Source: Syntrophaceae bacterium
Lineage (GTDB): Bacteria > Desulfobacterota > Syntrophia > Syntrophales > Smithellaceae
Reading direction: 5' to 3'
NCBI GenBank assembly: GCA_003142535.1
Contig: PLMQ01000014.1
Location: forward strand, 1 to 64,000
DNA length: 64,000 nt
The position numbers and the translations under genes were made by a program. Numbering within the stretch: position 1 is the stretch's first letter; the number at the start of each line of letters is the position of its first letter. A model generated the notes under the pieces. It was not told the origin of the DNA. It made no database searches and saw only the letters and a program-made list of their open reading frames with translations. This document shows positions 125-20,749 of this stretch, piece after piece.

Positions 125-1552
125 CTATTTCATTTCCAGACAGAACTTATTGATGATTTCCGGTGGGGCGAGGGGATAGTCGCCGGTATAGCAGGCCAGG
201 CAGAAGCAATCTTTGTTCATGCCGGTTCCCCTGACCATGCCATCAATGGTCAGATAATGCATAGAATCCAATCCGATGAACTCGGCAATGGCTTTTTCAT
301 TTTCCTTTTTGGCCGCCAGCAGCTCTCCTTTGGAAGAAAAATCAATGCCATAAGGGCAGGGGTAGGCGGTAGGCGGGCAACTGATGGCCATGTGGATTTC
401 TTTGACGCCAATTCCTTTTAAATTTTGCACACGGTTACGGCTGGTAGTGCCGCGGATGATGGAATCTTCCACAATCAAAACTTTTTTACCGGCCAGCAGC
501 TGGCGCACCGGATTTAATTTCACCCGGACGCCGAAATCACGCATGGGCTGAGTCGGCTGAATAAATGTCCGGCCGACATAGTGATTGCGGATCATCCCCA
601 TTTCAAAGGTAATGCCGGACTCTTCGGCATAGCCCAACGCCGCATAATTGCCGGAGTCAGGAAATGGCATCACTATATCTACATTGGGCATATATTCGCG
701 CGCCAGTTCATGGCCTAAGCGCTTGCGGCATAAATATACATTCTGACCAAAAATCTGACTGTCGGGGCGCGCAAAATAAATCAGCTCAAAAATACAATGG
801 CATGGCTTCACCGCCGGATATGGTTGTAAGCTCTTACAACCTTGCTCATCAATAATGATGATTTCACCGGGGTTGACATCGCGGATATATTTGGCCCCCA
901 CCAGATCAAAAGCGCAGGTCTCCGACGCGACAACCCAGCCCCCATTTAGTTTACCCAGCGCCAGAGGACGGAATCCCCTAGGGTCACGGGCGGCGATGAT
1001 TTTATCGCGGGTCAGCATGATAATACTGTAAGCGCCTTCAACCCGGGAAAGCGCAACGGTCAAAGCTTTTTCCAGGCCGTCTTTTAAGTGAGGAGCCATC
1101 AAGTGAATAATTATCTCACTATCCATGGTGGATTGAAAAATGGAGCCGCTGCTCTCCAACTCAGTGCGCAATTGCTGGGCATTGACGATATTGCCGTTAT
1201 GCGCCAGGGCGTAATACTCATCGGCAAAATGAACCAGAAAAGGCTGCGCATTGGAGAGAACAGAAGACCCGGTTGTCGAATAACGCACATGGCCGATGGC
1301 CAGCTTGCCGGGCAGTTTCTGCAGTATTGGCTCTTTAAAGACTTCGGAAGCCAGCCCCATGCCTTTGTGATCCCATACCTGACAGCCGTCGGAACTGACA
1401 ATGCCTGCTGATTCCTGGCCGCGATGCTGCAAAGCAAATAACCCGAAAAAGGTCACACGTGATGCGTCCTCGTTGCCGTAAATGGCAAAAATACCGCATT
1501 CTTCGCGGGGACGTCCGGATTCATTCAAATCTTCTGAAAATAAAGATGACAT
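125..1552 (-). CDS. purF: Amidophosphoribosyltransferase PurF (Fe-S type)
   Basis: First committed step of purine synthesis: PRPP plus glutamine gives 5-phosphoribosylamine. The 475-residue protein has an N-terminal class II glutaminase whose nucleophile is Cys19 in ECGIFAIYG, so an 18-residue propeptide must be removed. The PRPP-binding loop is VLIVEDSIIRGTTSRN. Cysteines in PCHCIFE, SCPPTAYPC and the C-terminal Cys451/Cys454 pair match the ligands of the Bacillus-type 4Fe-4S enzyme rather than the cluster-free E. coli type. It is the last gene of carA-guaA-carB-purF, 70 bp after carB. Full length for the family. Confidence 0.96.
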   Translation of the reverse strand: MSSLFSEDLNESGRPREECGIFAIYGNEDASRVTFFGLFALQHRGQESAGIVSSDGCQVWDHKGMGLASEVFKEPILQKLPGKLAIGHVRYSTTGSSVLSNAQPFLVHFADEYYALAHNGNIVNAQQLRTELESSGSIFQSTMDSEIIIHLMAPHLKDGLEKALTVALSRVEGAYSIIMLTRDKIIAARDPRGFRPLALGKLNGGWVVASETCAFDLVGAKYIRDVNPGEIIIIDEQGCKSLQPYPAVKPCHCIFELIYFARPDSQIFGQNVYLCRKRLGHELAREYMPNVDIVMPFPDSGNYAALGYAEESGITFEMGMIRNHYVGRTFIQPTQPMRDFGVRVKLNPVRQLLAGKKVLIVEDSIIRGTTSRNRVQNLKGIGVKEIHMAISCPPTAYPCPYGIDFSSKGELLAAKKENEKAIAEFIGLDSMHYLTIDGMVRGTGMNKDCFCLACYTGDYPLAPPEIINKFCLEMK

Positions 1553-1622
1553 ATATACTCTCTTTTAATGTTGGATTGCCGCATTGTTTCGCTCCTCTCA
1601 ATGACACGCTAACAATTGGGCA

Positions 1623-4600
1623 TCACTTATTATGATACTCCTGTAACGGACACACCTGCCAGTCTTCTTTAGCCATCGCCTTCACCGCTTCGCACAAGGC
1701 ACGGGCTCCGGCAATAGTTGTCGTGTAAAGTACATTATAGGTCAGAGCGCCGCGCCGGATATGATAAGCATCACGTGACGATTTGCGCCCCACGCTCGTG
1801 TTGATCACCATTTGAATATCGCCGTTTTTAATATGATCCACAATATTCGGCCGCCCTTCACTGACTTTCAATACAATATCAGCGTTAACACTGTGAGCTT
1901 TCAGATGCTCTGCAGTACCGCGCGTGGCCACAATTTTGAAGCCCAAATCCTGAAAAGTACGGGCAACGGGCACAATTTTATCTTTATGATAATCATGAAC
2001 GCTGATGAATACCTTACCTTTCATCGGCATTTTAAAGCCCGCGGCCATTTGCGATTTCGCAAAAGCCAGTCCAAAAGAATGGTCAATACCCATAACTTCG
2101 CCGGTGGATTTCATCTCCGGCCCCAGCAGTATATCAACGTTGGGAAAACGGTTAAAGGGAAACACGGCTTCTTTAACGGAAACATGCTTAGGTATAATCG
2201 TTTTAGTGAAACCAAGCTCCTTTAAAGTTTTGCCCAGCATGACTTTGGTGGCAAGCTTCGCCAGCGGCACGCCGATGGCCTTGCTGACAAAGGGAACAGT
2301 GCGCGAAGCGCGGGGATTAACTTCCAGGACATAAAGCTTCCCATCTTTGATCGCGTATTGAATATTCATCAGGCCGATAACATTGAGCTCGGCTGCCAGC
2401 ATCTTGGTTTGTTTTTCAATCAACTCCAGCAAATCAGCAGAAATAGTAATCGGCGGTAATATACAGGCGCTGTCACCGGAATGAATTCCTGCCTCTTCGA
2501 TATGCTCCATAATACCGGCAACAACGGTTGTTTCGCCATCGCTGATGGCATCAACATCGACTTCAGTAGCGTCCTCCAAAAATTTGTCAATCAGGATCGG
2601 ATGATCGGGAGAAACCAGCATGGCCCTACCCATAAATGAGGTCAACGTATCCGGATCGTAAACGATTTCCATAGAGCGGCCGCCCAGCACATAGGAAGGA
2701 CGCACCAGCACCGGGTAGCCAATGTGTTGGGCCGCTTGCAGAGCTTTGGCCACATCCCTGGCCGTATCGTTATCCGGCTGATTGAGTTTTAACTTTGTGA
2801 CAATTTCCTGAAAACGGTCGCGATTTTCCGCGCGGTCAATGGAATCTGGCGAGGTACCGATAATATTTACACCTGCCGCTTCGAGCCCACGGGCCAAATT
2901 AAGAGGAGTCTGCCCGCCGAACTGAACAATCACGCCTTCCGGCTTTTCGGCCTGCAAAATGTGTAAAACATCTTCCAGTGTCACCGGTTCAAAGAAGAGT
3001 TTGTCGGAAGTGTCGTAATCGGTACTGACCGTTTCCGGATTGGAGTTGATCATGATGCTTTCGCAGCCTTCTTCACGCAGCGCAAAAGAAGCATGAACAC
3101 AGCAATAATCAAATTCAATGCCTTGGCCGATGCGGTTGGGGCCGCCGCCGATAATCGCTACTTTCTTTTTAGTGGATGGGCGCGTTTCATTTTCTGTTTC
3201 GTATGTCGAATAATAATAAGGAGTGTAGGCTTCAAATTCCGCAGCGCAGGTATCCACCAGCTTGTAAACAGGGATTATTTTTTCTTTCTGTCGCCAATCG
3301 CGAATTTCCTGTTCGGTCTTTTTCCAGATATTAGCCAATGCCCTATCGGCAAAACCCATTTTCTTGGCTGCAATCAACAATTCAACAGAAGGCTGCGAAC
3401 TTTTCAATTCTTCTTCGGCATCAACTATTTCTTTAATCTGATGAAGGAACCAGGGATCAATCAAAGTCAGCTTTTGTATTTCGCTTACTTCCATACCGCT
3501 TTGCAGCGCGGCAGCAATATAAAACAGGCGTAAAGAATTGGGCTTGATGAGCTTTTCCTTAAGGAAGGCTTTCTTATCTTTTACATCATCAGGAATGGGC
3601 TCTAACAGGCTGAAGCGCCCGATTTCCAGCGAGCGAATTGCCTTTTGCAAAGATTCCTTAAAAGTACGGCCGATCGCCATAGTCTCGCCAACCGACTTCA
3701 TGGAAGTTGTCAAAAAATCTTCCGTCTCCGGAAATTTCTCAAATGTCCAGCGCGGAATTTTAACGACGCAGTAATCGATAGTCGGCTCAAACGAAGCCAT
3801 TGTTTCGCGGGTAATATCGTTGGGAATTTCATCGAGGGTATAGCCCACAGCCAACTTGGCGGCAATTTTCGCAATAGGGAAACCGGTGGCTTTGGAAGCC
3901 AGCGCCGACGAACGCGAAACGCGCGGATTCATTTCCACGACAATCATTTCTCCGGTCTGCGGATGCACGGCAAACTGGACATTGGAACCACCTGTTTCCA
4001 CGCCGATTTCGCGCATGATGGCAATCGCCGCGTCGCGCATGTGCTGATATTCGCGGTCGGTCAGGGTTTGCGCCGGGGCAACGGTAATGGATTCGCCCGT
4101 ATGCACGCCCATCGCGTCAAAATTTTCAATCGAGCAGATAATGACAACATTATCCGCCTTGTCCCTCATTACTTCGAGTTCATATTCCTTCCAGCCCAGC
4201 ACTGACTCTTCAATCATGATCTCATTAATCATGCTAACATCCAAACCGCTTTTGGCTATTTCGCTGAGTTCTTCGCGGTTATAGGCTACGCCGCTGCCGG
4301 TACCGCCCAGCGTAAATGACGCCCGGACAATCACAGGAAAACCGATTTTATCAGAGATTTTTAATGCCTCATCTATACTACGGGCAAATCCGCTGTGCGG
4401 CATGCGCAAACCGATTTTTTCAATGGCATGACGGAATTTTTCGCGGTCTTCCGCTTTATGAATAACTTCCAGCGATGCGCCGATCATCTCCACACCATAT
4501 TTAGCCAGTACGCCGCTTTCCGCCAAGGCGACCGCAGTATTCAAACCAGTCTGTCCGCCTAAAGTGGGTAGAAGTGCGTCGGGGCGTTCGCGGACGATTA

Positions 4601-4829
4601 CTTTTTCCACTGCTTCGGGGGTAATGGGCTCAATATAGGTGCGGTCAGCCATTTCCGGATCGGTCATGATTGTTGCCGGATTGCTGTTAATTAGAACAAC
4701 TTCATAGCCTTCTTCCCGCAGAGCTTTACAGGCCTGTGTTCCCGAATAATCAAACTCACAGGCCTGACTGATGATAATCGGCCCTGATCCGATAAGCAAT
4801 ATTTTCGATATGTCTTTACGTTTCGGCAA
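1623..4829 (-). CDS. carB: Carbamoyl-phosphate synthase large subunit CarB
   Basis: Makes carbamoyl phosphate for arginine and pyrimidines from bicarbonate, ATP and ammonia tunnelled from CarA. At 1068 residues it is full length, with two homologous ATP-grasp halves (glycine-rich [17 protein letters not shown] near the start and [16 protein letters not shown] near residue 560), a central oligomerisation region and a C-terminal MGS-like allosteric domain ([19 protein letters not shown]). It lies in a minus-strand operon between guaA (23 bp upstream) and purF. Nothing looks degenerate. Confidence 0.97.
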
Positions 4830-4852
4830 TTAAATATTCTCTAGTAATTAAT

Positions 4853-6382
4853 TTATTCCCACTCAATTGTGCTGGGAGGTTTCGAACTGATATCATAAAC
4901 AACGCGGTTGACGCCGCGCACTTCATTAATAATGCGGTTGGAAATGCGCGCCAAAATGTCGTGCGGTAGCGGCGCCCAATCCGCAGTCATCGCGTCATCG
5001 CTGGTTACGGCGCGGATCGCCAGAATATTTTCATAAGTGCGCTGATCTCCCATAATGCCCACGCTCTTCAACGGCAGCAAAACAGCAAATGATTGCCAGA
5101 GTTTATAATAGAGTTTATTCGCGCGTATTTCTTCCAGCAGAATGGCATCGGCTTTACGCAAAACATCCAGACGCTTGGCGGTTACTTCGCCGATAATACG
5201 AATAGCCAGACCGGGGCCGGGAAAGGGCTGCCGCCAGACAACATCATCGGCTAATCCCAGTTCTTTTCCCAAGAGACGAACCTCGTCTTTAAAAAGATGT
5301 TTCAGCGGTTCGACTAATTGTAAATTCATTTTTTTGGGCAGGCCACCCACGTTATGATGCGATTTGATAACGGCGCTAGGGCCGCCGAAGGCGGAACGTG
5401 ATTCAATTAAATCCGGATATAAAGTCCCCTGAGCAAGAAATTTAACATTCCAGATTTTTCGGGCTTCTTTATCAAAAACTTCAATAAATGTACGACCGAT
5501 TATTTTCCGTTTTCTTTCGGGATCGGTCACGCCTTTGAGCTTGCTTAAAAACTGCTTTCCGGCACGGGTAAAACGCAGATTAATTTGCAAATGTTTTTTG
5601 AACATTTCAATCACTCGCGCGGCCTCACCCTGACGCAGCACACCGTTATCTACAAAAACACAGGTTAAATTTTTTCCGATAGCCCTGTGCAGTAAAACTG
5701 CCGCCACGGAGGAATCCACGCCACCGGAAAGGCCGAGAATCACTTTACCTTCCCCCACCTGCTTACGGATTTCTTCTACGATACGAGCCACAAACGACTT
5801 CATCGACCATGATTTTTTGCAGTGGCAAACGTCAAACAAGAAGTTTGCCAGCATTTTCTTGCCGGCTTGGGTATGCACAACTTCCGGATGAAATTGCAGG
5901 CCATAAAAATTCCTGCGGGCATCTTCGGCTGCGGCCACCGTCGTGTTTTCCGTAGATGCTGTGACGACAAAACCGGCCGGCAGTTTACCAATGGAATCAC
6001 CGTGACTCATCCAGCATTGTGTCTTCTTTCCCACGCCGGAAAAAATTCCTTTTTGCTTTTGGACAAGAAGTTCAGCAAATCCGTATTCACGCTTCTTAGA
6101 GCCAATAACTTTGCCGCCCAGCGAATCAACCATGTATTGCAAGCCATAGCAGATACCGAGCACCGGAATGTCCAGACTAAAGATGCCTCTATCCACGCGC
6201 GGTGATCCTTTGCTGTAAATGCTCGCGGGACCGCCGGAGAGAATTATACCTTCCGGATTCAGTTTCTTAATAGCGTCGATGGAAATGGACGGCGGTTCAA
6301 TCTGACAATAAACATGATGTTCGCGAACCCGCCGGGCAATTAATTGATTATATTGAGAGCCGAAATCAATTATCAAAATCAT
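4853..6382 (-). CDS. guaA: GMP synthase (glutamine-hydrolysing) GuaA
   Basis: Converts XMP to GMP with ATP and glutamine. The 509-residue protein has a class I glutaminase domain (Cys78 in GICYGLQ, and HPEV), an ATP-pyrophosphatase domain with the P-loop [10 protein letters not shown] near residue 220, and the C-terminal dimerisation domain ending PPSTIEWE. The start overlaps the carA stop by 4 bp (ATGA), so translation is probably coupled. Its position between carA and carB is uncommon, since these two subunits are usually adjacent. Confidence 0.97.
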
Positions 6383-7524
6383 GCCGCCTTCCCCTTTTCT
6401 TTCTTCATCATCTGCACAAACTGCGAAAATAAATATTCCGTATCGTGCGGGCCGGGAGATGCTTCCGGGTGATATTGCACGCTCATCGTTAAAGGTGGCA
6501 TTTGCATGCCCTCGGAAGTAGTGTCATTCAAATTATCGTATGTTTTATCGGCAAGGCCTGCCACTGATGCCGGCACGACAACGAAGCCATGATTTTGAGA
6601 AGTGATTTCGACACGTCCTGTCTGTAAATTTTTTACAGGCTGATTGATTCCATGATGGCCAAATTTAAGTTTCTCCGTATAGCCGCCAATGGCCTGACCG
6701 ATTATTTGATGCCCCAGACAAATGCCGAATACCGGTATCTTTCCCACAATTGAGCGGGCGGCCTCAACAATATAAGGAAGAGCAGCCGGGTCACCAGGGC
6801 CGTTAGAAAGCAATACTCCATCCGGTTTATAAGAAAGAATATCACTGCCTGTGGAAGATGCCGGCAGCACAATCACTTCACAGCCGTTACTTTCCAGAAG
6901 TCTTAAAATATTATATTTAACTCCACAGTCCAGAACAATAACCCGCAGCTTCTTCACTGATTTCTTTGCAGGAATTTTACCATCTTGTACAACACCCTTT
7001 TTCCATTGATAAGGCTTGGAACAGCTTACTTCGCGCACAAGATCACGACCAACCAAACCCGGATATGCCTTTACCTTTTCCAAAAGTAAATTAACATCTT
7101 GAGTTTCCGTGGATATAATTCCTTTCATGGAGCCGGAAAGCCGTAAACGGCGGGTGAGCGCACGAGTGTCAATTCCATCCATGCCGATTTTTCCATGTTT
7201 TTCCAGGAAGGATTGCAAACTTTCTTGCATTCGCCAGTTGCTGGGATTGGGCTGGTATTCTTTTACTATAAACCCTTCCAGATGAATACTCGCCGATTCC
7301 ATGTCTTCTTCATTTATTCCGTAGTTGCCGACCAGAGGATAGGTCATAGTAACAATCTGGCCTTTATAGGAAGGGTCGGTAATGACTTCCTGATAGCCGG
7401 TCATCCCTGTATTAAAAACTACTTCGCCCATAGTTTCGCCGCTTCCGGCAAAAGCATAACCTGCAAAAATACTGCCATCTTCCAGGACGAGCAAAGCTTT
7501 ACGTTCTTTATTTAACAGGGACAT
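6379..7524 (-). CDS. carA: Carbamoyl-phosphate synthase small subunit CarA
   Basis: Glutaminase subunit supplying ammonia to CarB. The 381-residue protein has the CarA-specific N-terminal domain ([33 protein letters not shown]) and a class I GATase domain with the nucleophile in VFGICLGHQ and the histidine in [16 protein letters not shown] box lies about 11 nt before the ATG. It is the first gene of the nucleotide operon, so the operon promoter must lie in 7525-8151, which is filled with repeats. It overlaps guaA by 4 bp. Confidence 0.97.
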
Positions 7525-8151: not shown

Positions 8152-10320
8152 TTAGCTGATGAACAGCATCTCCCAGAATTTAGGCATCGGCCACAATTCG
8201 TCATCTACAATACCTTCCAGTTCGTCAACGTACTCACGAAGTTCATTCATTTTTGTTTTTACTTTGCTGCAAAGCATCTCGGCTTTTTTCGCTTCATCAT
8301 GAATTGCCGATGCCGATTCAACTTTAGCCAGAATTTCCTTGTTGGTCGAATAAATTTTATTCACGAGTTCCAGAGAAGTTTTTAAGATATCTTTCTGGGC
8401 ACTGATCACGGCAGAACTGCCGAGAGCTTCTTTTATTGCATTGATCGCTTGAGACAGCGTTTTCTGATAGGCTGTGGCAGCTGGAATTACCTGATCCAGG
8501 CAGATATTGTTCAGGCATTTGACTTCGATTTCCAGGTCTTTAATGTATTTTTCAACATAAATCAGATATCTTGATTTGAGCTCAACTTTAGAAAGCACTT
8601 CATATTTTTCAAAGAGGTTTAAAGCCTTATCTGTAATCAGTGCTTTCAGTGCTACAGGTGTGGTTTTATCATTGGGCAAGCCTCTTTTACCGGCTTCAAT
8701 TTCCCATTCTTTTATATAATTGTCGCCATTGTAGAGAATCGGTTTGATATCTTTAATTTCCTTCTTCAATATTTCGAATACGGCCTTGTTGATGTTGCCG
8801 CCTTTGGCTTTGATTTTTTCGGCAAGATAGTCCAGACTTTCGGCCACTATCGTGTTGATTACCGCAGTGGGAAAAGATATTGATTGCGATGAACCGACTG
8901 CGCGAAATTCGAATTTGTTACCGGTAAACGCAAACGGTGATGTTCTATTACGGTCCGTATTATCTTTGCTGACAATAGGTATAGACGAAACACCAAGATC
9001 AATGATTTCGGCATTTGTAGCTTTAGTCACTATCCCTTTTTCTATGTTGGAGAGAATATTGGTGAGCTGATCGCCGAGAAAAATGGAGATGATTGCCGGC
9101 GGCGCTTCATTGGCTCCTAGTCTGTGATCATTGGCATAGGTAGCAACAGATGCCCGCAGGATATCGGCATGCTTATAGACAGCGCGAACTATTGCAATTA
9201 GAAATACGAGAAATTGAATATTGTCATGCGGTGTATTGCCCGGGGTCAACAAGTTGTTCCCATTGTTATCAGACAGCGACCAGTTGACGTGTTTCCCCGA
9301 ACCGTTAATTCTGGCAAATGGCTTTTCGTGAAGTAAAGCGGCAAGATTGTGCTTCCTGGCTACTGATTGCATTGTGTCCATAACAAGCTGGTTATGATCA
9401 ACAGCTAAGTTAGCCTCTTCGAATACGGGGGCTAATTCAAACTGGCTGGGAGCGACTTCATTGTGTCTAGTTTTTGCAGGGATACCTAGTTTAAAGAGTT
9501 CCTCTTCCATATCATGCATATAGGAAGACATCCTTTCCTTGATACTGCCGAAATACTGATCTTCCAGTTCTTGTCCCTTAGCGGGAGGAGCGCCAACGAC
9601 AGTGCGGCCGGCAAGTACCAGGTCCTGACGCTTAAAAAAATAATCCATATCAATCAGGAAGTATTCTTGTTCCGGGCCCAAAGTCGAAAAAACCTTTTTA
9701 ACATTTTTATTACCCAGAAGTTTCAGCATATTTACGGCGCTTTTACTTACTGCCTTGTTCGATCTGAGCAGAGGTGTCTTTTTATCGAGGGCTTCGCCAG
9801 TGTAAGAAATGAAGGCCGTCGGAATACAGAGAGTCGTTGAAATTCCATTTCTTCTGATAAAAGCTGGCGAGGACATGTCCCAAGCCGTATATCCTCTTGC
9901 TTCAAATGTGGATCGAATTCCACCGCTGGGAAAACTCGAGGCGTCCGGTTCACCCTGCACAAGCTGTTTGCCGGAAAATTTCTCCACAACTTCGCCAACT
10001 CCGACCGGATCGACAAAAGCGTCATGTTTTTCCGCTGTAATTCCGGTCATCGGTTGGAACCAGTGGGCAAAATGGGTTGCGCCTTTGGCTATCGCCCACT
10101 CCTTCATGGCATGGGCAACGATGTTTGCAGTTGAAATATCAAGAACCTTGTCTTCATTGATCGCTTCCATAAGTTTTTTATAGGTATCTTTCGGCAGTTT
10201 TTCTTTCATTACCTTGTTACTAAAGGTATCCTCACCATAATACTCCGATACCGGAACAAATTTTTCTTTCTCAATAACGTAATTTCTTTCGGATGCTGTG
10301 ACTGGAATCGTTCTTTTCAT
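8152..10320 (-). CDS. glnN: Glutamine synthetase type III
   Basis: ATP-dependent glutamine formation from glutamate and ammonium. At 722 residues it matches the GS-III family (about 700-730), well above GS-I (about 470). Diagnostic stretches include [46 protein letters not shown] and [21 protein letters not shown]. The C-terminus [12 protein letters not shown] is typical of the family. GGAGG lies 5 nt before the ATG. A candidate sigma-54 promoter lies about 125 bp upstream. It stands divergent from the glutamate synthase operon, making a GS/GOGAT pair. Confidence 0.96.
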
Positions 10321-10980: not shown

Positions 10981-12831
10981 ATGAAACTGGTAGAAGAATT
11001 TAAAAAAACCGCAGGCGATATAAAAATTATCGATAAAAAAGAAGAAAAAGAAATGTACAGCCACGATATCGGCGATGTTCCGGTAATCATGACTAAAACA
11101 TTATTCAACATTCAGCCTGATTTTGTCGTCCAGCCTAAAAACGCCGTAGAAATAAAAAAAGTGCTGGAATTTGCTAATGAGAAAAAAGTAGCGGTTATTC
11201 CCAGGGGCGCCGCATCATGGGGTTTTGGCGGAGTTATCCCTACAAATGCGGGAATAGTTATTGATTTATCGCCTTTTCGCAAAATTCTCCATCTCGACAA
11301 AGCCCAAAAGACTATAACTGTGGAAGCAGGAGCAAGATGGAGCGATATTGACATTCTGGCAAAAAAAGAAGGTTTATGTCTAATGACATATCCATCCAGC
11401 AAATTTTCCACCGTTGCCGGCTGGATTGCCACAGGCGGTTACGGCATTAACAGTTTTCGCTATGGCCACTTATCAAATCAGATTATTTCCATGACAATTA
11501 TGACACCGTCCGGTGAATCTAAAAAGATTACTTCTAAAGATCCGGAGTTTGAATACTTTATTTCCACCGAGGGTGAGTATGGAATTATTCTGGAAGTAAC
11601 TCTGAAACTGCGTGACGTTCCACAAGCATCATATTCCCATCTTTGTTACTTCTCCAGTGATAAAGCCGCCTTTACATTTCTTACGAGCTTCATGAAAGCT
11701 AAAGCTTCTGAAGGCATTAATCCCAATGCAATTCGTTTTTTAGATGAGAACAACTTAAATAATACCAATGAGATAATGCACGCAAGTATCTTTAAAAAGA
11801 ATGCCGGTGTCCTGTTCGAGTTCGGCAGTTCCGAGGAAGACGAAAAATTTCTGAAATTCATGACTCAGGCCGGCAATATTGAAGAAGCGCCCCGTTATGC
11901 CGCCAGTTATTTATGGAATGAGCGGCTTTTCGGTATGAAAGCAAAGCGCCTTGGCCCAACAATCATGGGCAGTGAAATCATCATTCCTATAGAGTTGGCT
12001 GCCGGATTCATTGAAAGAGCAAAAAAACTCGGTGCTTATTTTGGTGTGGAAATATTTATCGATTGTACTATCATTGATTCCAAAATGGCTTTGATCATGA
12101 CAAATTATCTCTGCGATTCCAGGAAATTCAAATATTATATCGACTTGACAATGCAGATGATCCTTACCAAAACGGCTCTTTCGATGGGAGCAGAGCCATA
12201 TGGATTGGGAATTTGGAACGCGGGATTTATTAATTATCTATACAACAGCGAAAAGAAACAAAAACTTCTGGCATACAAAGCCAAGGTTGATCCCAATAAT
12301 ATCATGAATCCGGGCAAATTCTTCGGTATCCAATCAAAATTTTTCAATATTCCGGCAGTTGTTTTTCGTCCGGCCATTCTTAACTTTTCCATAAGGATGT
12401 TAATATTGCTATCACCAGTTATTGGAAGGATAGCGACATTGATTCTCGGAAAAAATAAGAAGGTAGACAATCTCGATTTTGAGCTGACGACTCATGCCTG
12501 TGCCAAATGCGGAAATTGCATTGCCGTGTGCCCGGCATATCTTGTTACGGGAAATGAAGCTCTGACAGCAAAAGGCAAAATCGCCCTAGCGAAAAAGATT
12601 ATTGATGGTAAAAAAGTTACGCAGGAAGAAGCGGAAAATGTATTTATGTGTATGCATTGCAAGGGCTGCGAAGAGATTTGTCAGACCAATCTTGAGTTGA
12701 TGATGCTCTGGGATGCACTGGAAAAAAGGATCGACGGCAAGTTTGGCCGTCCCGAAAATAAGATTAATGATTTTCTGAAACAGGTTGATGACAGCAAAGA
12801 ATACTGGGACATGGTGGAGCGCAATAACTGA
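10981..12831 (+). CDS. FAD-linked oxidase with 4Fe-4S domain (GlcD/GlpC-like), GOGAT operon
   Basis: 616 residues. The N-terminal half is an FAD-binding PCMH fold (AVIPRGAASWGFGGVIPTNAG, then FSTVAGWIATGGYGINSFRYG) followed by the FAD-oxidase C-terminal domain (VDPNNIMNPGKFFG). A hydrophobic segment lies near residues 460-485. The C-terminus has two cluster motifs, CAKCGNCIAVCPAY and CMHCKGCEEICQT, as in GlpC-type subunits. Such proteins oxidise 2-hydroxy acids such as lactate, glycolate or 2-hydroxyglutarate. Here it leads an operon of split glutamate synthase genes that lacks GltD, so I infer it feeds electrons to the synthase. Substrate unknown. The ATG has a GGAAGAG box 11 nt upstream. 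Confidence 0.8.
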   Translation: MKLVEEFKKTAGDIKIIDKKEEKEMYSHDIGDVPVIMTKTLFNIQPDFVVQPKNAVEIKKVLEFANEKKVAVIPRGAASWGFGGVIPTNAGIVIDLSPFRKILHLDKAQKTITVEAGARWSDIDILAKKEGLCLMTYPSSKFSTVAGWIATGGYGINSFRYGHLSNQIISMTIMTPSGESKKITSKDPEFEYFISTEGEYGIILEVTLKLRDVPQASYSHLCYFSSDKAAFTFLTSFMKAKASEGINPNAIRFLDENNLNNTNEIMHASIFKKNAGVLFEFGSSEEDEKFLKFMTQAGNIEEAPRYAASYLWNERLFGMKAKRLGPTIMGSEIIIPIELAAGFIERAKKLGAYFGVEIFIDCTIIDSKMALIMTNYLCDSRKFKYYIDLTMQMILTKTALSMGAEPYGLGIWNAGFINYLYNSEKKQKLLAYKAKVDPNNIMNPGKFFGIQSKFFNIPAVVFRPAILNFSIRMLILLSPVIGRIATLILGKNKKVDNLDFELTTHACAKCGNCIAVCPAYLVTGNEALTAKGKIALAKKIIDGKKVTQEEAENVFMCMHCKGCEEICQTNLELMMLWDALEKRIDGKFGRPENKINDFLKQVDDSKEYWDMVERNN

Positions 12832-12875
12832 TCCACAGGATATTAAAATATTATTGAAAAGATGAATTAAAGACT

Positions 12876-14288
12876 ATGCCAAAGAAATATCACATTCACT
12901 CAAAAGTTACGCCGCTTAATCTGGATTACGTGTTTAAATTCAAGATCGAGCGCGGAGAAAACTGCATCAATTGCGGTAAGTGCACAAAAGTGTGCATCTA
13001 TGAAGCGCATAAACGGGGCAAAGATGGTGATACGCGCAAAATGGCTGACCCGAACACGGTGGTCTGCAAAAACTGTTTTCGCTGCATTCAGGAATGCCCT
13101 CGGGGAGCGCTGGAAAAATCTCTGGATAAAGACTTCTTAAATATCGGCGGCGGCTACTGGAAGCCGGACATGTTTATTACGCTATGGAAGCAGGCGGAAG
13201 ACGGCAAGGTGCCCGTTACCGGAGCCGGTTACAGAGGTCCGTTTACCGGACCGGGGTTTGACAGCATGTGGACCGATATGTCGGAAATTGTCCGCCCGAC
13301 ACGCGACGGAATTCATGGACGGGAATACATCAGCACATCCGTTGAACTAGGCAGGAAACTCAATCACCTGACCTTTGATGAAAAGGGCAAATTACTGTCG
13401 AAAATTCATGATACAATTGATATTCCGATTCCCATAATTTTTGATTTTCCCAAAGAGAATTTGAGTCCGAATGTTAAAGTTGCCTTGGTGAGAGCGGCTG
13501 CAGAACTAAACACCTGTATCGTATTATCTGCTGATGATATTAAGGCAGATATAAAAAAATACATAAAAAACATTATTCCATTAATTTCCCATAAGGAAAT
13601 TGATAAGCATCAGGGGTTGATCAAAAGCGTAAGATTTGTGGCACTTGATTATGATGAAGAAATATTAAGTACTTTACCTGCATTGCAGGATAAAATTAAG
13701 AAAATAAATAATGTACTTACCATCATTCGAATTCCGGCAACGAAATCTGTGGAAGCCATTGTTTCCAAGCTGGCACAAAGCGGCGCGGAGATCATCCATG
13801 TCGTGGCCGATTATCGAGGTCAGGAGAATAATGATTCGGCCGATCAAAATCGGCGTCTGGCCAAGGATATTATCCGTGCCGTGCATCTGAAGCTGGTTGA
13901 GGATAGAATCCGCGATGAAGTTACAATTATTTTCTCCGGCGGAATAGCAATGGCCGAACATGTGCCTAAGGCAATGCTCTGCGGCGCGGATTTAATCGCA
14001 ATTGATTTGCCGCTGCTGATTGCGCTTGGTGCCAGGTTGTATGAAGAGCCGGAGAAGATCATAGTGTTCCCTGAAGGACTGGAAAAAATTGCAGTACGAA
14101 CTGTAATGCAGAGGATTATTAACCTTATGGGCGCCTGGCACTCGCAGCTTCTGGAAGTAATGGGCGCCATGGGTATCCGTGAAGCACGTCGGCTGCGCGG
14201 TGAAACCGGAAGGGCTATCTTCTTTGAAGAAATCGATAATGATACTTTTGGAAAACTATTTAAAAAAAGAGAAACAGCAAACATATGA
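12876..14288 (+). CDS. Ferredoxin-domain glutamate synthase-like subunit (degenerate FMN domain)
   Basis: 470 residues. The N-terminus carries two 4Fe-4S motifs, CINCGKCTKVC and CKNCFRCIQECP. The rest resembles the central/FMN-barrel part of glutamate synthase (GAGYRGPFTGPGFD, IIFSGGIAMAEHVPKAMLCGADLIAIDLPL, then MGAWHSQLLEVMGAMGIREARRLRGE). It lacks the FMN/flavin loop seen in the next gene (KPGLGG and DGGYGGTGAAP), so it may be a non-catalytic paralogue that wires electrons or builds the complex. It overlaps the next ORF by 4 bp, implying fixed stoichiometry. The family assignment is solid; the role is inferred. Confidence 0.75.
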   Translation: MPKKYHIHSKVTPLNLDYVFKFKIERGENCINCGKCTKVCIYEAHKRGKDGDTRKMADPNTVVCKNCFRCIQECPRGALEKSLDKDFLNIGGGYWKPDMFITLWKQAEDGKVPVTGAGYRGPFTGPGFDSMWTDMSEIVRPTRDGIHGREYISTSVELGRKLNHLTFDEKGKLLSKIHDTIDIPIPIIFDFPKENLSPNVKVALVRAAAELNTCIVLSADDIKADIKKYIKNIIPLISHKEIDKHQGLIKSVRFVALDYDEEILSTLPALQDKIKKINNVLTIIRIPATKSVEAIVSKLAQSGAEIIHVVADYRGQENNDSADQNRRLAKDIIRAVHLKLVEDRIRDEVTIIFSGGIAMAEHVPKAMLCGADLIAIDLPLLIALGARLYEEPEKIIVFPEGLEKIAVRTVMQRIINLMGAWHSQLLEVMGAMGIREARRLRGETGRAIFFEEIDNDTFGKLFKKRETANI

Positions 14289-15772
14289 AACCATCAACTG
14301 TAAAAATTAAAAAAATGCCTTCGCGATTTAAGCATCAGGTGCCGAAATATAAAATTACTAGATCCGACGCCTGCATCAACTGCGGTACTTGTGCAAAATC
14401 ATGCCCCTACGGCGTTCATGAAAGAGTTGAAGGGCACAACAGGACAAAAGCACCAATTAACTATAAATGTATCGGGTTTGAATGCAAGAACAACGATTTT
14501 TATTGTATTGCAAAATGCCCCCGCAAGGCTTTGAGCATCTCACTGAATCCGATGTATGAAACGCTCGGCGATTATCGCTGGACAGCAGATATAATTACGG
14601 CGACCTGGATAATGGCGGAAACAGGATATCCGCCCGAACGAAAGGATCTTGAATATAATACCGGTAATTCCGGCGGTGGTTTCGATAAGCTTAGGCTCAA
14701 GTTTCCTGCCGGGCAGCCAAAAATTAATAAGCTGGAAATATCAACGGAGATTCCCTTAAACAGGAGAAATGATGGCCGCGCCAATGTTATCATTTCCACG
14801 CCTGTCTATGGCGGCGGCATGTCCTTCGGGTCGGTAAGTCTGCCGACAATGATTTCCAAGGCGCGTAACGCATCGTTATGGAATACATTTACCTGTACCG
14901 GTGAGGGAGGATACCCGGAACTGCTTCAACCTTATAACGACCACGTTATTACTCAGGTGGCGACAGGTTTGTTTGGAGTGCGCGAAGAAACAATACAGCG
15001 GGTAAAAATAGTGGAATTCAAATATGCACAGGGTGCCAAACCCGGTCTCGGTGGGCATCTTCTGGGTGAAAAAAATACAGAAAGCGTAGCCCGGATGCGG
15101 GAAGCAGTCCAGGGTACATCGTTGTTCTCGCCCTTTCCCTTTCACTCGGTCTATTCCATCGAAGATCACAAGAAGCATATTGACTGGATCAAAGAAATCA
15201 ATCCTAACGCATTGGTTTCCGTTAAGGTTTCGACACCCAATGATGTGGATATGGTTGCTGTCGGTTCCTACTATGCCGGTGCTCATATAATTCACATAGA
15301 CGGCGGATATGGCGGTACAGGCGCGGCACCCGACATTGCCAAAAAGAACATTGCCATGCCAATAGAATATGCCATCATGAAAGTTCATAATTTTTTAAAG
15401 GAAGAGGGCGCACGGGACGCCATTACGCTCATTGCCTCCGGTGGCATAAGAACTGCTCATGATTTGGCCAAAGCCATTTGCTTGGGCGCGGATGGAGCGG
15501 TTATCGGCACGGCGGAATTGGTTTCTCTGGAATGTGTCCGCTGCGGAAACTGCGAATCAGGACGAGGCTGTGCCCGGGGCATTGCCTCAACGGATTCGGA
15601 ACTTTCCGATTTGTTTAACGAGGAATGGGCAACGCAGCGACTGGTTAATATGTATCATGCCTGGAATGTCCAGCTTATTGAAATACTACAGAAGTTCGGA
15701 ATGAAGAGTGTAAGAGAGCTAGTTGGCCGGACTGATTTGCTTGAGCATATAGATTACAGTAAACCCCATTAG
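14285..15772 (+). CDS. Glutamate synthase FMN-binding subunit with ferredoxin domain
   Basis: 495 residues. The N-terminus holds two Fe-S motifs (CINCGTCAKSC and a spaced CIGFEC...CIAKCP). The C-terminal barrel is the glutamate synthase domain: PVYGGGMSFGSVS, FTCTGEGGYPE, GAKPGLGGHLLG (usual form KPGEGGQLPG), SVKVSTPNDV, HIDGGYGGTGAAP, ASGGIRTAHDLAKA. CVRCGNCESGRGC stands where GltB has its 3Fe-4S cysteines. It reduces 2-iminoglutarate, made from 2-oxoglutarate and glutamine-derived ammonia. The leucine in PGLGG, where glutamate is usual, is worth noting. Translation is coupled to the previous gene. Confidence 0.85.
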   Translation: MKPSTVKIKKMPSRFKHQVPKYKITRSDACINCGTCAKSCPYGVHERVEGHNRTKAPINYKCIGFECKNNDFYCIAKCPRKALSISLNPMYETLGDYRWTADIITATWIMAETGYPPERKDLEYNTGNSGGGFDKLRLKFPAGQPKINKLEISTEIPLNRRNDGRANVIISTPVYGGGMSFGSVSLPTMISKARNASLWNTFTCTGEGGYPELLQPYNDHVITQVATGLFGVREETIQRVKIVEFKYAQGAKPGLGGHLLGEKNTESVARMREAVQGTSLFSPFPFHSVYSIEDHKKHIDWIKEINPNALVSVKVSTPNDVDMVAVGSYYAGAHIIHIDGGYGGTGAAPDIAKKNIAMPIEYAIMKVHNFLKEEGARDAITLIASGGIRTAHDLAKAICLGADGAVIGTAELVSLECVRCGNCESGRGCARGIASTDSELSDLFNEEWATQRLVNMYHAWNVQLIEILQKFGMKSVRELVGRTDLLEHIDYSKPH

Positions 15773-15976
15773 AGCAACGGGCGTTTGGCGATTTCAGAAG
15801 GCGGCATTAAACAGCTAGCTGTATTACAGGATTTTAACCCCCAACAGGAGTTGGGAGCTTCCTCTAACGGGGTAAATAATAAAGGCATATAGGCTGAAGG
15901 AAAAGACATTCGATGATTATTCTTACCCCTCATCCTTTAGCCTTCAGCCGTCAGCCTTTCCACGGAGCTATTAATA
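15773..15976. other. Intergenic spacer with inverted repeats, inside the GOGAT operon
   Basis: The 204-bp gap holds a small hairpin CCAACAGGAGTTGG near 15840 and a longer-range inverted repeat, AGGCTGAAGG near 15890 with CCTTCAGCC near 15940. The gap is unusually large for genes of one complex, so an internal promoter or processing site is possible. No ORF. Confidence 0.4.
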
Positions 15977-18607
15977 ATGGACAATGTTGAAAAAATAACT
16001 ATATCACGAGCTGAAATTTGCAGTCAGGTGCCGCCTTTGAGCCAAAACACTGAAGAAGAGGGAGGCTGCGGCGTAACAGGTTTTATTTGTTCGATTCCTG
16101 TAACGGGGAAAAACATCTTCGAACCATCCGTGCAGATGCACAACAGAGGTAATGGAAAAGGCGGAGGCATTGGAGCTGTCGGATTTGTTCCCGAAGCGAT
16201 GGGTGTGTCTAAACAGGTTCTTCAAGATGATTATATGCTGCACATTGCTCTTCTTGATGGGAGCGTATGTACTGAAATTGAAGATACATACATCAAACCG
16301 TACTTTAAAATCGATAAATCGGAAAAGCTCGCCACAATTGATGATCACCGCAGTATCGGATTAGATGTCCGGCCTCCTGATATTATGCGTTATTTTGTGC
16401 GCGTTAAGGATGATGTCCTCGATAAGTTCATCGCGGATAACAAATTTTCATCTATGGAAAGGCGTGACGCTGAGGATGAGTTTGTCTATCAGAACAGTTT
16501 TAAGATTAACACGCACTATTATGCGTCCCTTGGTGAAAAAAAGGCTTTTGTCATGTCGCACGGCAGGAACATGATGATCCTGAAAATCGTGGGATATGCG
16601 GAAAATGTTGTCAAATACTATAAGTTGGATGACTTCAAAGCTTATGCCTGGCTGGCCCATCAGCGTTATCCAACGCGCGGACGTGTTTGGCATCCTGGTG
16701 GTTGCCATCCGTTTAGCGCGCTCAATGAAGCGTTGGTACATAACGGTGACTTTGCTAATTATCAGGCTGTGAATGAATATCTCAAACAGCGCAACTATTA
16801 CCCTCTGTTTCTGACAGATACTGAAGAAGCAGCGCTGTTGCTGGATTTGTGGAGCAGGGTATATAAATATCCGCTGGAACACCTGATTGAGGCCATGGCC
16901 CCGACTTCGGAAAGGGACTTCGATATGTTGCCTGCGGAAAAGCAGGAGCTGTATAAAGCTATTCAGACCCATCATGTAAACGCATCGCCGGATGGACCGT
17001 GGTTCTTTATCATTGCAAGAAATGATGTTAGAAATGATCAATTCCAACTGATAGGCATTACCGATACCGCTATGCTGCGTCCACAGGTTTTTGCCCTGCA
17101 GGAAGGGGAAGTCCAGATCGGTCTGATTTGTTCGGAAAAACAGGCGATTGATGCGACTCTAATGTCACTGGAAAGGGAAGATCCGCGTTTCGGACCCATT
17201 GCCGATAAATACTGGAATGCCCGCGGTGGCAGCTATACCGATGGCGGTTCATTTATTTTCAGCCTTAAAGATACCACAGATGGCATGAAGCTTATTTGTA
17301 CCGACAAGTTCGGAAAAGTGATTAAAACTCCAAAGGGTAAAGCTACCTGTAATTTAGCGAAAAAAATTACCATTACAGAAGACTTCAAGCCCATAGAACA
17401 AAAGCTTAGTGCTTTATTTGCTGAAAATGATTATTCGGCTACTGCTGATAAATTGTTTACATATATAAAAGATAGCATTGGCAAATTTAATCCGGACAAG
17501 TTTAGGTTCTGCATTGAGACGATCAAGGGTTATGCTCTAAAAAGTGATAACTGTAAGCAAGCAGCCATCAGCACGTTAACGTTTTTGAATGATCGTCGAT
17601 TCAATACCGGCTCGCTAAAAAGAAGCTCCCTGCTGCATGTACTGAAAATAGCTCTAGATGAAATTTTCGATGCAACGTCGATGATCACAGAAGTATCAAA
17701 TTCACCCTTCAGCCGGATTAATTACACAAGCCGCGATCAACTTCGCGCACCGAAGACCAATGAGAAAATTCTGGTTATTGACGCCGGACAATTTGAACCG
17801 GAAGGTGATAAATGCGACGCGGTAATGATGGTGAAGGCCTTTAAACTCGGCTGGAAAAAGTTCATTGTTTACAAATATCGTGGTCAGCGGTTTACCGGTT
17901 GCGGTTTCGGTCCGGCCACCAAGGATGTGAGAATAGATGTGTACGGTGCTTCCGGCGATTATCTGGCCTCTGGCATTGATGGCATGGAAATTTATGTTCA
18001 TGGCAATGCCCAGGATCAACTCTGCCAGATTATGAAAGAGGGTAAACTTGTTGTATTTGGGGATGTCGGCCAGACATTTATGTACGGGGCCAAAGGAGGC
18101 AGCGCTTACATAATGGGTAACGCGGCGGGCAGGCCTTTAATTAATGCCGTCGGTAAGCCGCGGGTTGTGATTAATGGCACTGCGCTGGATTATCTTGCTG
18201 AATCTTTTATGGCTGGTGATCCGCTCAATGGCGGCGGTTTTGTCATTCTTAACGGTATCGGCTTTGATGAAGAGAACGGCTCGATCTGTGAATACGATTC
18301 TCCATACCCCGGCTCAAATATCTTTTCTCTTGCTTCCGGTGGTGCGATTTATGTTCGGGATCCACATAAAAAACTGGTTGATGAACAGTTAAATGGCGGA
18401 GAATTTGCTGAAATTACCGATGCGGACTGGAAGCTGATAGAGCCTTACCTGCAAGAGAATGAAAAACTTTTCGGTATTACGATAGAAAGACTTCTCACAG
18501 TTGAAGGCAATAAAAAGGCTCCGCAGGCAGTCTACAGAAAGATCAAACCTCTAAAAGCGACAGCTGTCCAAAAAGACGATGAAGATGATGATGGTTTAGA
18601 AGAATAA
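15977..18607 (+). CDS. Glutamate synthase glutaminase/GXGXG subunit
   Basis: 876 residues. The N-terminus is a class II glutamine amidotransferase: after a 30-residue propeptide the nucleophile is Cys31 in EEGGCGVTGF, with MHNRGNGKGGG, HQRYPTRG and HNGDFANY following. The C-terminal third is the GXGXG beta-helix of GltB (DVYGASGDYLASGIDGMEIYVHGNAQDQ, split by repeats such as GAKGGSAYIMGNAAGRP). In ordinary GltB these domains flank the FMN barrel in one chain; here the barrel is in the preceding genes. The C-terminus is acidic (DDEDDDGLEE). It would release ammonia for the FMN subunit. Confidence 0.88.
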   Translation: MDNVEKITISRAEICSQVPPLSQNTEEEGGCGVTGFICSIPVTGKNIFEPSVQMHNRGNGKGGGIGAVGFVPEAMGVSKQVLQDDYMLHIALLDGSVCTEIEDTYIKPYFKIDKSEKLATIDDHRSIGLDVRPPDIMRYFVRVKDDVLDKFIADNKFSSMERRDAEDEFVYQNSFKINTHYYASLGEKKAFVMSHGRNMMILKIVGYAENVVKYYKLDDFKAYAWLAHQRYPTRGRVWHPGGCHPFSALNEALVHNGDFANYQAVNEYLKQRNYYPLFLTDTEEAALLLDLWSRVYKYPLEHLIEAMAPTSERDFDMLPAEKQELYKAIQTHHVNASPDGPWFFIIARNDVRNDQFQLIGITDTAMLRPQVFALQEGEVQIGLICSEKQAIDATLMSLEREDPRFGPIADKYWNARGGSYTDGGSFIFSLKDTTDGMKLICTDKFGKVIKTPKGKATCNLAKKITITEDFKPIEQKLSALFAENDYSATADKLFTYIKDSIGKFNPDKFRFCIETIKGYALKSDNCKQAAISTLTFLNDRRFNTGSLKRSSLLHVLKIALDEIFDATSMITEVSNSPFSRINYTSRDQLRAPKTNEKILVIDAGQFEPEGDKCDAVMMVKAFKLGWKKFIVYKYRGQRFTGCGFGPATKDVRIDVYGASGDYLASGIDGMEIYVHGNAQDQLCQIMKEGKLVVFGDVGQTFMYGAKGGSAYIMGNAAGRPLINAVGKPRVVINGTALDYLAESFMAGDPLNGGGFVILNGIGFDEENGSICEYDSPYPGSNIFSLASGGAIYVRDPHKKLVDEQLNGGEFAEITDADWKLIEPYLQENEKLFGITIERLLTVEGNKKAPQAVYRKIKPLKATAVQKDDEDDDGLEE

Positions 18608-18818: not shown

Positions 18819-20402
18819 TTAATCGGTGTCATCGGCGTTTTTATTGTTTTTGCGGAAAATCTTTGGATTGATTCCCAGTTTGGTAATTTTATATTGAATG
18901 ATACGCTTTGTTGTTCCCAAAATATTTGCGGCCTTTGTTTGATTTCCTCCCGTAGCTTCCAGAGTATCAATAATTAAAGATCTTTCCTGTGCCTCTACAA
19001 TAGAAGATAGTTTGCTGTGTTCCTTCTTTTCCACTTTAGCTTCTCTTACATGTAAAGACGGCGGCAAATGAAAAGCATCTATTGTATCGGTATTGGATAG
19101 CAGAACAGCCCGTTCAATGCAATTTTCCAGTTCACGGACATTACCCGGCCATTTGTGAGACAGAAATACTTCTATTGCCGCGGTGGAAATTTTTTTAACA
19201 TTTTTACCCATTTCCTTGCTGTATTTCAAAATAAAATGATCAGCCAAAAGTATAATATCGCTGCCTCTTTCGCGCAGCGCTGGTAAATATATAGGAAAAA
19301 CATTCAAGCGGTAAAACAAATCAGCACGAAAACGTTCCGCCATAATGTCTTGTTCCAAATTTCTGTTGGTTGCCGCAATAATGCGGACATTGACATTAAT
19401 AACTCGCGATGAGCCCAGCGGCTGAAACCTTTTTTCCTGTAAAACGCGTAAAAGCTTTACCTGAGCGGCAGCGGAAAGCTCGCCTACTTCATCCAAGAAA
19501 ATTGTGCCACCGTTGGCTTCTTCAAAACGTCCCCGGCGCTGCTGGAGCGCTCCTGTAAAAGCACCTCTTTCATGGCCAAAAAGCTCGCTTTCAATGAGCG
19601 TATCAGGAATTGCCGCGCAATTTACCTGAACCAGCGGTCCGCCATGCCGGGGAGAGTTCATGTGGATCGCTCTGGCGATCAACTCCTTACCGGTTCCTGT
19701 TTCACCGGTGATTAGAACTGTCGTATTCGAATCAGATACCTGAGCCACCAAACCGAATACTTCCTGCATTGGTTTGGAATGGCCGATAATATCTATCGAA
19801 GGCGCACGCTCACTGCCAACAATTTTTCTCAGCCGTTCGTTTTCTTCCTCCAAAGCCCTGATATGCACAGCCTTGGCCACAAGCTCAGCTACGGCGGAAA
19901 GCATGGCCAGTTCCTTATCCAGATCTTCCACTTCGAGAGCTACTTTATCGGCTGATAAAACTCCGACGACATTTGCATCATAAATAATGGGCACACAAAG
20001 AAAAGCCAGTTCCGATCTGTTTAAATGACGGCGGGCGCCAGTGCGGTCTAAAAAGTGAGTAGCCTGACCAAGATTAGCCACGGCCATAGGGCGGCCTGTT
20101 TCCGCCACTTTACCTGTGATACCCTCACCGGGCTTGTAAGTAACATCCATTCCCTCAATATTGACATCATGCGCTACATCCAGCCAGACTTCTTTTTTCC
20201 CCCGGTCTAAAAGGGAAATCATCCCGCGTTGCATACCTAAACGCAGACTCATTTCCTTTAAAACCAACTCTAATTGATCACGCAAATCTTCCGGCTGCGC
20301 CATAATTATAGCAATCGCGTGCAATGTGGCCAGTTCTTCATAACTATGAATACTCAAATTGCGCTCTTTCTCAGAAAAAGATTTTTTTGCAGTCTTGCTC
20401 AT
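18819..20402 (-). CDS. NifA/NtrC-like sigma-54-dependent activator (GAF-AAA-Fis HTH)
   Basis: About 527 residues from the ATG at 20402. An upstream in-frame start at 20456 adds a hydrophobic stretch that does not look native. The N-terminal GAF domain spans about residues 30-190 ([19 protein letters not shown]). The AAA+ domain has Walker A GETGTGKE, the sigma-54 contact loop GAFTGA, Walker [13 protein letters not shown] and the R-finger region. The C-terminal Fis-type helix-turn-helix is [21 protein letters not shown]. This architecture is that of NifA. No receiver domain is present. Being next to glnN/GOGAT with candidate -24/-12 promoters, it probably controls nitrogen assimilation. Confidence 0.9.
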
Positions 20403-20749
20403 AGATATTTCGACTATCCATAAAAGTATTTTGTAACAAAATTGTACTAATAGCAATCATTTTTTAGCTTTTGAGAGTAAGTTTGCAAGGACTGAACCAA
20501 TTATGACAAATTTGTGAAAAGTAGGCAGAAAGTTGAAAATATTTTCAAAAGATGGTTAATATTATGAAAATACTAACTATTTATCATAAATAGCAGCAAA
20601 GCGAATATATCCGTGCTTAATGGGATAACAAAGATGTACAAAAATAGATTCTTGATGGGGGATATTAATTTACCGGCGGTTTGAAGAAGCCACTTGCTTG
20701 TGAAATTGGCGAATATGTAAAAAACGATTAAATAGACTGCTTTATTTCA
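20403..20749. promoter_or_regulatory. Upstream region of the sigma-54 activator, with two palindromes
   Basis: This gene-free stretch has a perfect 16-bp palindrome TTGAAAATATTTTCAA at 20533-20548 and CTATTTAT-C-ATAAATAG at 20577-20593, 28 bp apart, on the upstream side of the activator gene. They could be binding sites for the activator itself or another regulator. Both are AT-rich, so chance is a real alternative. Confidence 0.35.

Follow-up and report, generated by a model that had tools for sequence, protein, structure and literature searches.

Glutamate synthases and their electron-entry modules

To our knowledge, ammonia assimilation by glutamine synthetase and glutamate synthase (GS-GOGAT) is nearly universal, and either NAD(P)H or ferredoxin serves the glutamate synthases characterised so far; a role for F420 has only been proposed. 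The NADPH-dependent enzyme of Azospirillum and E. coli (GltB-GltD) joins a glutaminase, an FMN barrel with a 3Fe-4S cluster and a GXGXG domain to a separate module that contains FAD and two [4Fe-4S] clusters and through which electrons enter. The locus described here shares these elements but has no GltD: GltB is split into separate genes, an extra FMN-less GltB-like subunit is present, and the FAD module, which has no NAD(P)H site, adopts the VAO/PCMH (GlcD/LctD) fold. With the ferredoxin-dependent enzyme of cyanobacteria and plants it shares the lack of GltD and an Fe-S route to FMN. Fd-GOGAT, however, is one large glutaminase-FMN-GXGXG chain without an FAD subunit, whereas four genes encode the enzyme here, with FAD and additional 2x[4Fe-4S] domains among its four subunits.

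Among known systems, the putative F420-dependent GltS, with an FrhB-like subunit as the entry point, comes closest to such an exchange of the electron entry (PMC3448663, PMC3087415, PMC9012536). It too is a split-subunit GOGAT with another flavoprotein in the place of GltD. Its entry subunit is an FrhB/FdhB-like F420H2 dehydrogenase, whereas we find a GlcD/GlpC-like FAD/Fe-S protein and a second GltB-like adaptor; an F420H2 dehydrogenase domain of the FrhB/FdhB/Fsr-N type is found in none of the four operon proteins. A first-pass annotation of this DNA had proposed a new electron entry for GOGAT. The replacement of GltD by an FAD/Fe-S subunit is strongly supported, but a swapped entry has a precedent in principle in the putative F420-dependent GltS (PMC3448663, PMC3087415). 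We found nothing relevant in the searchable papers on a GOGAT with GlcD-like or MetVF partners.

A four-gene glutamate synthase operon without GltD

The window is the whole stretch of DNA that was analysed, 64,000 nucleotides of a Syntrophaceae contig. It contains a four-gene operon on the + strand at 10981-18607; when we re-read the open reading frames, the coordinates of the first-pass annotation matched exactly. The intergenic gaps are, in order, 44, -4 and 204 bases, B2 and B1 overlapping by 4 bases. The operon and its neighbors are as follows.

8152..10320, - strand: GSIII/GlnN, type III glutamine synthetase, divergent to the operon (PF12437, PF18318, PF00120)
10981..12831, + strand: FAD/Fe-S protein, 616 aa, GlcD/LctD-like FAD domain and GlpC/GlcF-like 2x[4Fe-4S] domain (PF01565 FAD_binding_4, 112 bits; PF02913 FAD-oxidase_C; PF13183 Fer4_8)
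12876..14288, + strand: B2, 470 aa, GltB-like Fe-S adaptor on a degenerate barrel, two 4Fe-4S sites (weak PF01645 Glu_synthase match to the C-terminal part of the profile only)
14285..15772, + strand: B1, 495 aa, catalytic glutamate synthase subunit with FMN barrel, 3Fe-4S cysteines and N-terminal 2x[4Fe-4S] (PF01645 Glu_synthase, 296 bits)
15533..15571, + strand: 3Fe-4S cysteines C417, C423 and C429 of B1, aligned to the three cluster cysteines of GltB
15977..18607, + strand: glutaminase (class II GATase) fused to a GXGXG helix domain, 876 aa (PF13522 GATase_6, PF01493 GXGXG)
18819..20456, - strand: NifA-like sigma-54 activator, GAF-AAA-Fis HTH (NCBIfam nifA, 482 bits, under the 528.85 cut-off)

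Profile matches and alignments bear out the earlier reading of the parts: a glutaminase and a GXGXG domain fused in one protein, a catalytic FMN/Fe-S subunit, a second subunit without the flavin loop and, in front of them, a protein with an FAD domain and two Fe-S sites. Aligned with Azospirillum GltB (1ea0/2vdc), B1 retains the GEGG and AQGAKPG blocks and the three 3Fe-4S cysteines. The glutaminase retains the nucleophile Cys31 in GGCGVTGF as well as the HNRG and LVHNGDFANY blocks, and removal of a propeptide would expose this cysteine as an N-terminal-type nucleophile. B2 shares 31% sequence identity with B1 and lacks the flavin loop, the catalytic lysine block and the 3Fe-4S cysteines. We thus take it to be a barrel that carries two Fe-S sites but is not catalytic. 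The predicted structure of B2 matches the folds of FMN hydroxy-acid oxidases, IMPDH and GltB; the model is poor at the Fe-S N terminus (pLDDT <50 for residues 1-76). Residues 111-150 of B2 (window 13206-13325) contain a block, W-T-D-M-S-E-I-V-R-P-T-R-D-G-I-H-G-R-E, that is the same across phyla and not found in GltB. This block is possibly a docking surface for the electron module.

GSIII divergently adjoins most Smithella-type loci that carry the FAD gene. A sigma-54 promoter pattern gave three matches in the window, below chance expectation, none of them before the operon. Window positions 125-7524, adjoining GSIII and the GOGAT genes, encode further glutamine-using enzymes (a class II amidotransferase with PRTase domain, GMP synthase and the CPSase small chain).

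The window belongs to a 2.93 Mb, 100% complete draft genome. Among named organisms, Smithella and other Syntrophaceae are the most closely related; our statements on the draft genome rest on searches for protein families. The reported absence of GltD from the window extends to the genome, in which a PF14691 search detected no free-standing GltD. This GltD-type Fe-S domain occurs there only in an HdrA-like 1494-aa fusion and in a NuoF-type 1018-aa hydrogenase-subunit fusion, which adjoins a hydrogenase catalytic subunit. The HdrA-like protein (L008, G000:C55, 5920-10404) carries an inserted GltD-type NAD(P)H module. We also considered a hidden GltD in the genomes with an FAD-type locus and rejected it: 7/7 inspected free GltD-like ORFs (∼480 aa) are NfnB located beside NfnA, and the window genome has no such ORF. 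The operon is the sole GltB locus of the window genome, and glutamate dehydrogenase (PF00208, ELFV type) was not found there. Of the known ways to make glutamate that were searched for, the window genome thus has only this GOGAT, unlike most FAD-type relatives, where glutamate dehydrogenase is present.

The FAD gene is part of the glutamate synthase locus across phyla

A survey of co-occurrence had been suggested with the first-pass annotation. We find the FAD gene directly before B2 in 28/28 related loci with downstream sequence. Within the reach of the contig, B2, B1 and glutaminase come directly after the FAD orthologue in all 28, far more often than chance would allow. The loci come from Syntrophales-like deltaproteobacteria, Dehalococcoidia, Opitutia and two euryarchaeal metagenome-assembled genomes (MAGs), the archaeal FAD proteins being 33-35% identical. 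One Desulfobacterota family has FAD protein, B2, B1, glutaminase and GXGXG domain in that order as a single chain of ∼2530 aa, with GlnA directly upstream of the fused gene (L123, L160-L163, and L124 in two pieces). This natural single-chain fusion strongly supports a role of the FAD unit as a subunit of GOGAT.

Within the order, ten of 59 genomes carry the FAD gene, the window genome included, and in these ten the GltB is of this type only. In the same NifA/GSIII neighborhood, further members of the same family, and even of the same genus, instead encode a different GltB, one with a GXGXG-GltD fusion. Beside this GltD-type GOGAT, sister genomes likewise have a homologue of the NifA-like activator. 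The 376-aa ORF in the glutaminase position of the sister GOGAT has no Pfam or NCBIfam match. From synteny, fusions and locus replacement, the FAD/Fe-S protein very probably stands in the place of GltD as a true GOGAT subunit.

The FAD subunit lacks the metal site and base of hydroxy-acid dehydrogenases

The following sites could be located in the FAD subunit.

12067..12090, + strand: residues 363-370, in the place of the HxGDGNxH metal motif, which is lost (T363, A370; alignments with LctD, 7qh2_C, and LDHD)
12196..12219, + strand: residues 406-413, PYGLGIWN, in place of the EHGxG motif with metal Glu and base His (alignment with LctD, LDHD and homologues)
12499..12531, + strand: first [4Fe-4S] site, CAKCGNCIAVC
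12649..12681, + strand: second [4Fe-4S] site, CMHCKGCEEIC

The two cluster motifs supply eight cysteines (507/510/513/517 and 557/560/563/567), all of them invariant in 20 homologues. Conservation of these cysteines and of the FAD-binding half indicates that the flavin is under selection. The predicted structure (pLDDT 78.7) is closest to D-lactate dehydrogenases in the PDB (TM about 0.8 on the target). With LctD, GlcD and D-2-hydroxyglutarate dehydrogenase (D-2-HGDH) the subunit shares the fold of FAD and cap domains and the substrate arginine, R315 corresponding to the carboxylate-binding Arg328 of LctD. It differs from them in the active site. In LctD this site consists of His377, His384, Glu422 and the base His423 (structure, PMC9232219); the corresponding residues are His434, His441, Glu475 and His476 in human D-2-HGDH (PMC7801405) and His398, His405, Glu442 and His443 in mouse LDHD (PMC10589216), each essential by mutation in the human and mouse enzymes. 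In the main FAD clade, the metal ligands His, His and Glu are replaced by T/Y/Q363, A370 and P406, and the catalytic base by an invariant tyrosine, Tyr407. Some divergent homologues retain the first metal histidine only; the second histidine, the glutamate and the base histidine are retained in none. The motif found instead, PY[GS]xG[IL]WN, is common to all GOGAT-linked homologues of the FAD subunit, archaeal and fused ones included.

A hydrophobic segment of 19 residues lies near residues 471-489 in most of the main clade (Kyte-Doolittle 1.4-2.5) and falls on a helix (464-489) in our model.

A group of GlcD-GlpC-like fusion proteins (L022-L026, G000:C2:21033; 580-1045 aa) is 26-28% identical to the FAD subunit, and in these the full hydroxy-acid metal site is also missing.

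The core is found with alternative electron-transfer partners

B2 is present in 114/395 Desulfobacterota genomes. The gene before it in most inspected loci is not that of the FAD protein: MvhD alone, MvhD-MetV or MvhD-MetV-MetF are found there, and the complete MvhD-MetV-MetF set lies directly upstream of the B2-B1-glutaminase/GXGXG core in many genomes (L092, L100, L107, L112, L117, L145-L151 and others). Glutamine synthetase genes often precede these B2-B1-glutaminase loci. When we classified 82 loci, 35 had the FAD protein (29 separate, 6 fused), 46 had MvhD/MetV/MetF, none had both, and one lay at a contig edge. The catalytic blocks of B1 and glutaminase are intact in every partner class compared. 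A tree of B1 groups the main FAD-type cores in a single clade (20 rows, SH-aLRT 100), and partner labels are strongly clustered, with weak deep branches.

MvhD, MetV and MetF are known from the HdrABC-MvhD-MetVF complex of Moorella-type acetogens. That complex has no GOGAT subunits, whereas the FAD-type locus has none of its genes, and we found no description of MvhD-MetV-MetF paired with a GOGAT core in the searchable papers. One genome of the Smithella family (L137, G022:C29, 4760-18001) contains an MvhD-MetF-B2-B1-glutaminase-HdrC-HdrB-HdrA(GltD domain)-MvhD cluster, and a separate classical gltBD elsewhere.

Since the core is paired with either FAD protein or MvhD/MetV/MetF and never with both, it appears from these gene arrangements to accept electrons from exchangeable modules. 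Relatives with the FAD gene elsewhere or with other partners had been named as findings that would speak against the original reading. The FAD gene was never found away from GOGAT, but the core often occurs with MvhD/MetV/MetF instead. We tentatively suggest, at less than even confidence, a modular GOGAT class in which the modules attached to one core can be exchanged: syntrophs, Chloroflexota and some archaea would use a GlcD/GlpC-like FAD protein, and sulfate reducers MvhD, either without MetV-MetF or together with them. Such enzymes might draw on donors outside the set of NAD(P)H, ferredoxin and F420 (an organic compound or a quinol that reduces the FAD, for instance, or methyl-THF via MetVF), sparing low-potential electrons in energy-limited anaerobes. 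In sulfate reducers the same core is paired with Wood-Ljungdahl electron-transfer proteins, and the sole GOGAT of a syntroph in which no glutamate dehydrogenase was found carries a different, conserved electron-entry flavoprotein. If correct, this would couple nitrogen assimilation directly with redox pools in organisms near the energy limit, would explain how GOGAT can run without GltD, and would make GOGAT a redox enzyme with exchangeable modules.

Proposed mechanism and candidate electron donors

We consider it likely that the operon encodes a functional glutamate synthase in which the FAD/2x[4Fe-4S] subunit docks on the non-catalytic B2 in place of the NAD(P)H-oxidizing GltD, and electrons pass from FAD through the clusters to the FMN of B1. 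This scheme builds on the subunits, cofactor motifs, invariant association, natural fusion and partner exchange, all of which can be read from the sequences, and assumes that the complex forms and that electron flow is linear and in the direction given. Electrons would enter at, or pass through, the FAD and then move via the two [4Fe-4S] clusters of this subunit to the two of B2, to the two of B1, and finally to the 3Fe-4S cluster of that subunit and its FMN. For the part that leads through B2, this route is based on cluster content and gene order. The glutaminase domain would free ammonia from glutamine; ammonia and 2-oxoglutarate would form iminoglutarate, to be reduced to glutamate at the B1 FMN.

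With this subunit in the place of GltD, the electrons for glutamate synthesis probably have an unusual origin. A donor near -100 to -200 mV is enough for glutamine-driven reductive amination of 2-oxoglutarate, and NADPH or ferredoxin is therefore not required thermodynamically. Candidate donors remain a non-classical small acid bound at the FAD (Tyr407/Arg315 site), reduced ferredoxin, and a membrane or flavoprotein donor.

The reading that competes best, although we hold it to be rather less probable than not, is that the enzyme is in effect ferredoxin-dependent. Reduced ferredoxin would feed the Fe-S domains, and the FAD would be a storage, gating or bifurcating flavin and not the entry point. 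The six [4Fe-4S] sites of the putative complex, its lack of an NAD(P)H domain and the pairing of related cores with the Fe-S protein MvhD are all consistent with this. Nfn transhydrogenase, which could provide reduced ferredoxin, is encoded in many FAD-type genomes and in both archaeal loci, where it lies just downstream of the glutaminase gene; NADPH could hence still supply the enzyme with electrons by way of ferredoxin. For simple ferredoxin input, however, there would be no need of a complete FAD fold in which the FAD-binding residues are strongly conserved and the altered active site is invariant.

It seems unlikely that a membrane or flavoprotein donor (menaquinol or ETF) feeds the FAD subunit via its hydrophobic helix. 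The segment near residues 471-489 and the partnership of LctD with EtfAB (PMC9232219) point in this direction, but the segment is missing from the archaeal and fused homologues, and the operon contains no etf or quinone-enzyme gene.

The first-pass annotation had proposed oxidation of a 2-hydroxy acid (lactate, glycolate or 2-hydroxyglutarate) as one possible source of electrons. A true dehydrogenase of this kind, feeding GOGAT directly, would be energetically sufficient, lactate/pyruvate lying at about -190 mV, and D-2-hydroxyglutarate oxidation would yield 2-oxoglutarate, the substrate of GOGAT itself. The FAD_binding_4/FAD-oxidase_C domains, the D-lactate dehydrogenase fold and the retained R315 agree with it. 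For the known chemistry this proposal is not supported: all three metal ligands and the catalytic histidine are replaced across the main clade and only R315 is kept, divergent members have at most the first histidine, and human D-2-HGDH and mouse LDHD become inactive when any one of these residues is mutated (PMC7801405, PMC10589216). The subunit also scores far under the glcD equivalog of NCBIfam (121 bits, cut-off 567.9). With metal site and base lost, classical 2-hydroxy-acid oxidation is improbable.

That the core is an accessory of methylene-THF reductase/Hdr complexes outside nitrogen assimilation, from which the FAD version was derived, fits its position beside MvhD-MetV-MetF in many genomes and the HdrCBA cluster of the Smithella-family genome with its own gltBD, but is very improbable given intact glutaminase and GltB active sites in all partner classes, GlnA or GSIII directly upstream at many loci, and a single GOGAT in the FAD-type relatives.

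Additional genes near FAD-type loci

A PPDK_N-type gene of ∼860 aa was considered as a fifth subunit of the putative FAD-dependent complex and rejected: the window and many FAD loci lack it, and a GltD-type GOGAT locus has it nearby as well. The conserved protein is encoded downstream of the glutaminase gene in many relatives (L055, L056, L065, L067, L071, L076, L077, L082, L127, L144). On the contig of an Opitutia MAG (L068, 1853-13283), gltB/gltD-like genes lie immediately upstream of the FAD-type operon.
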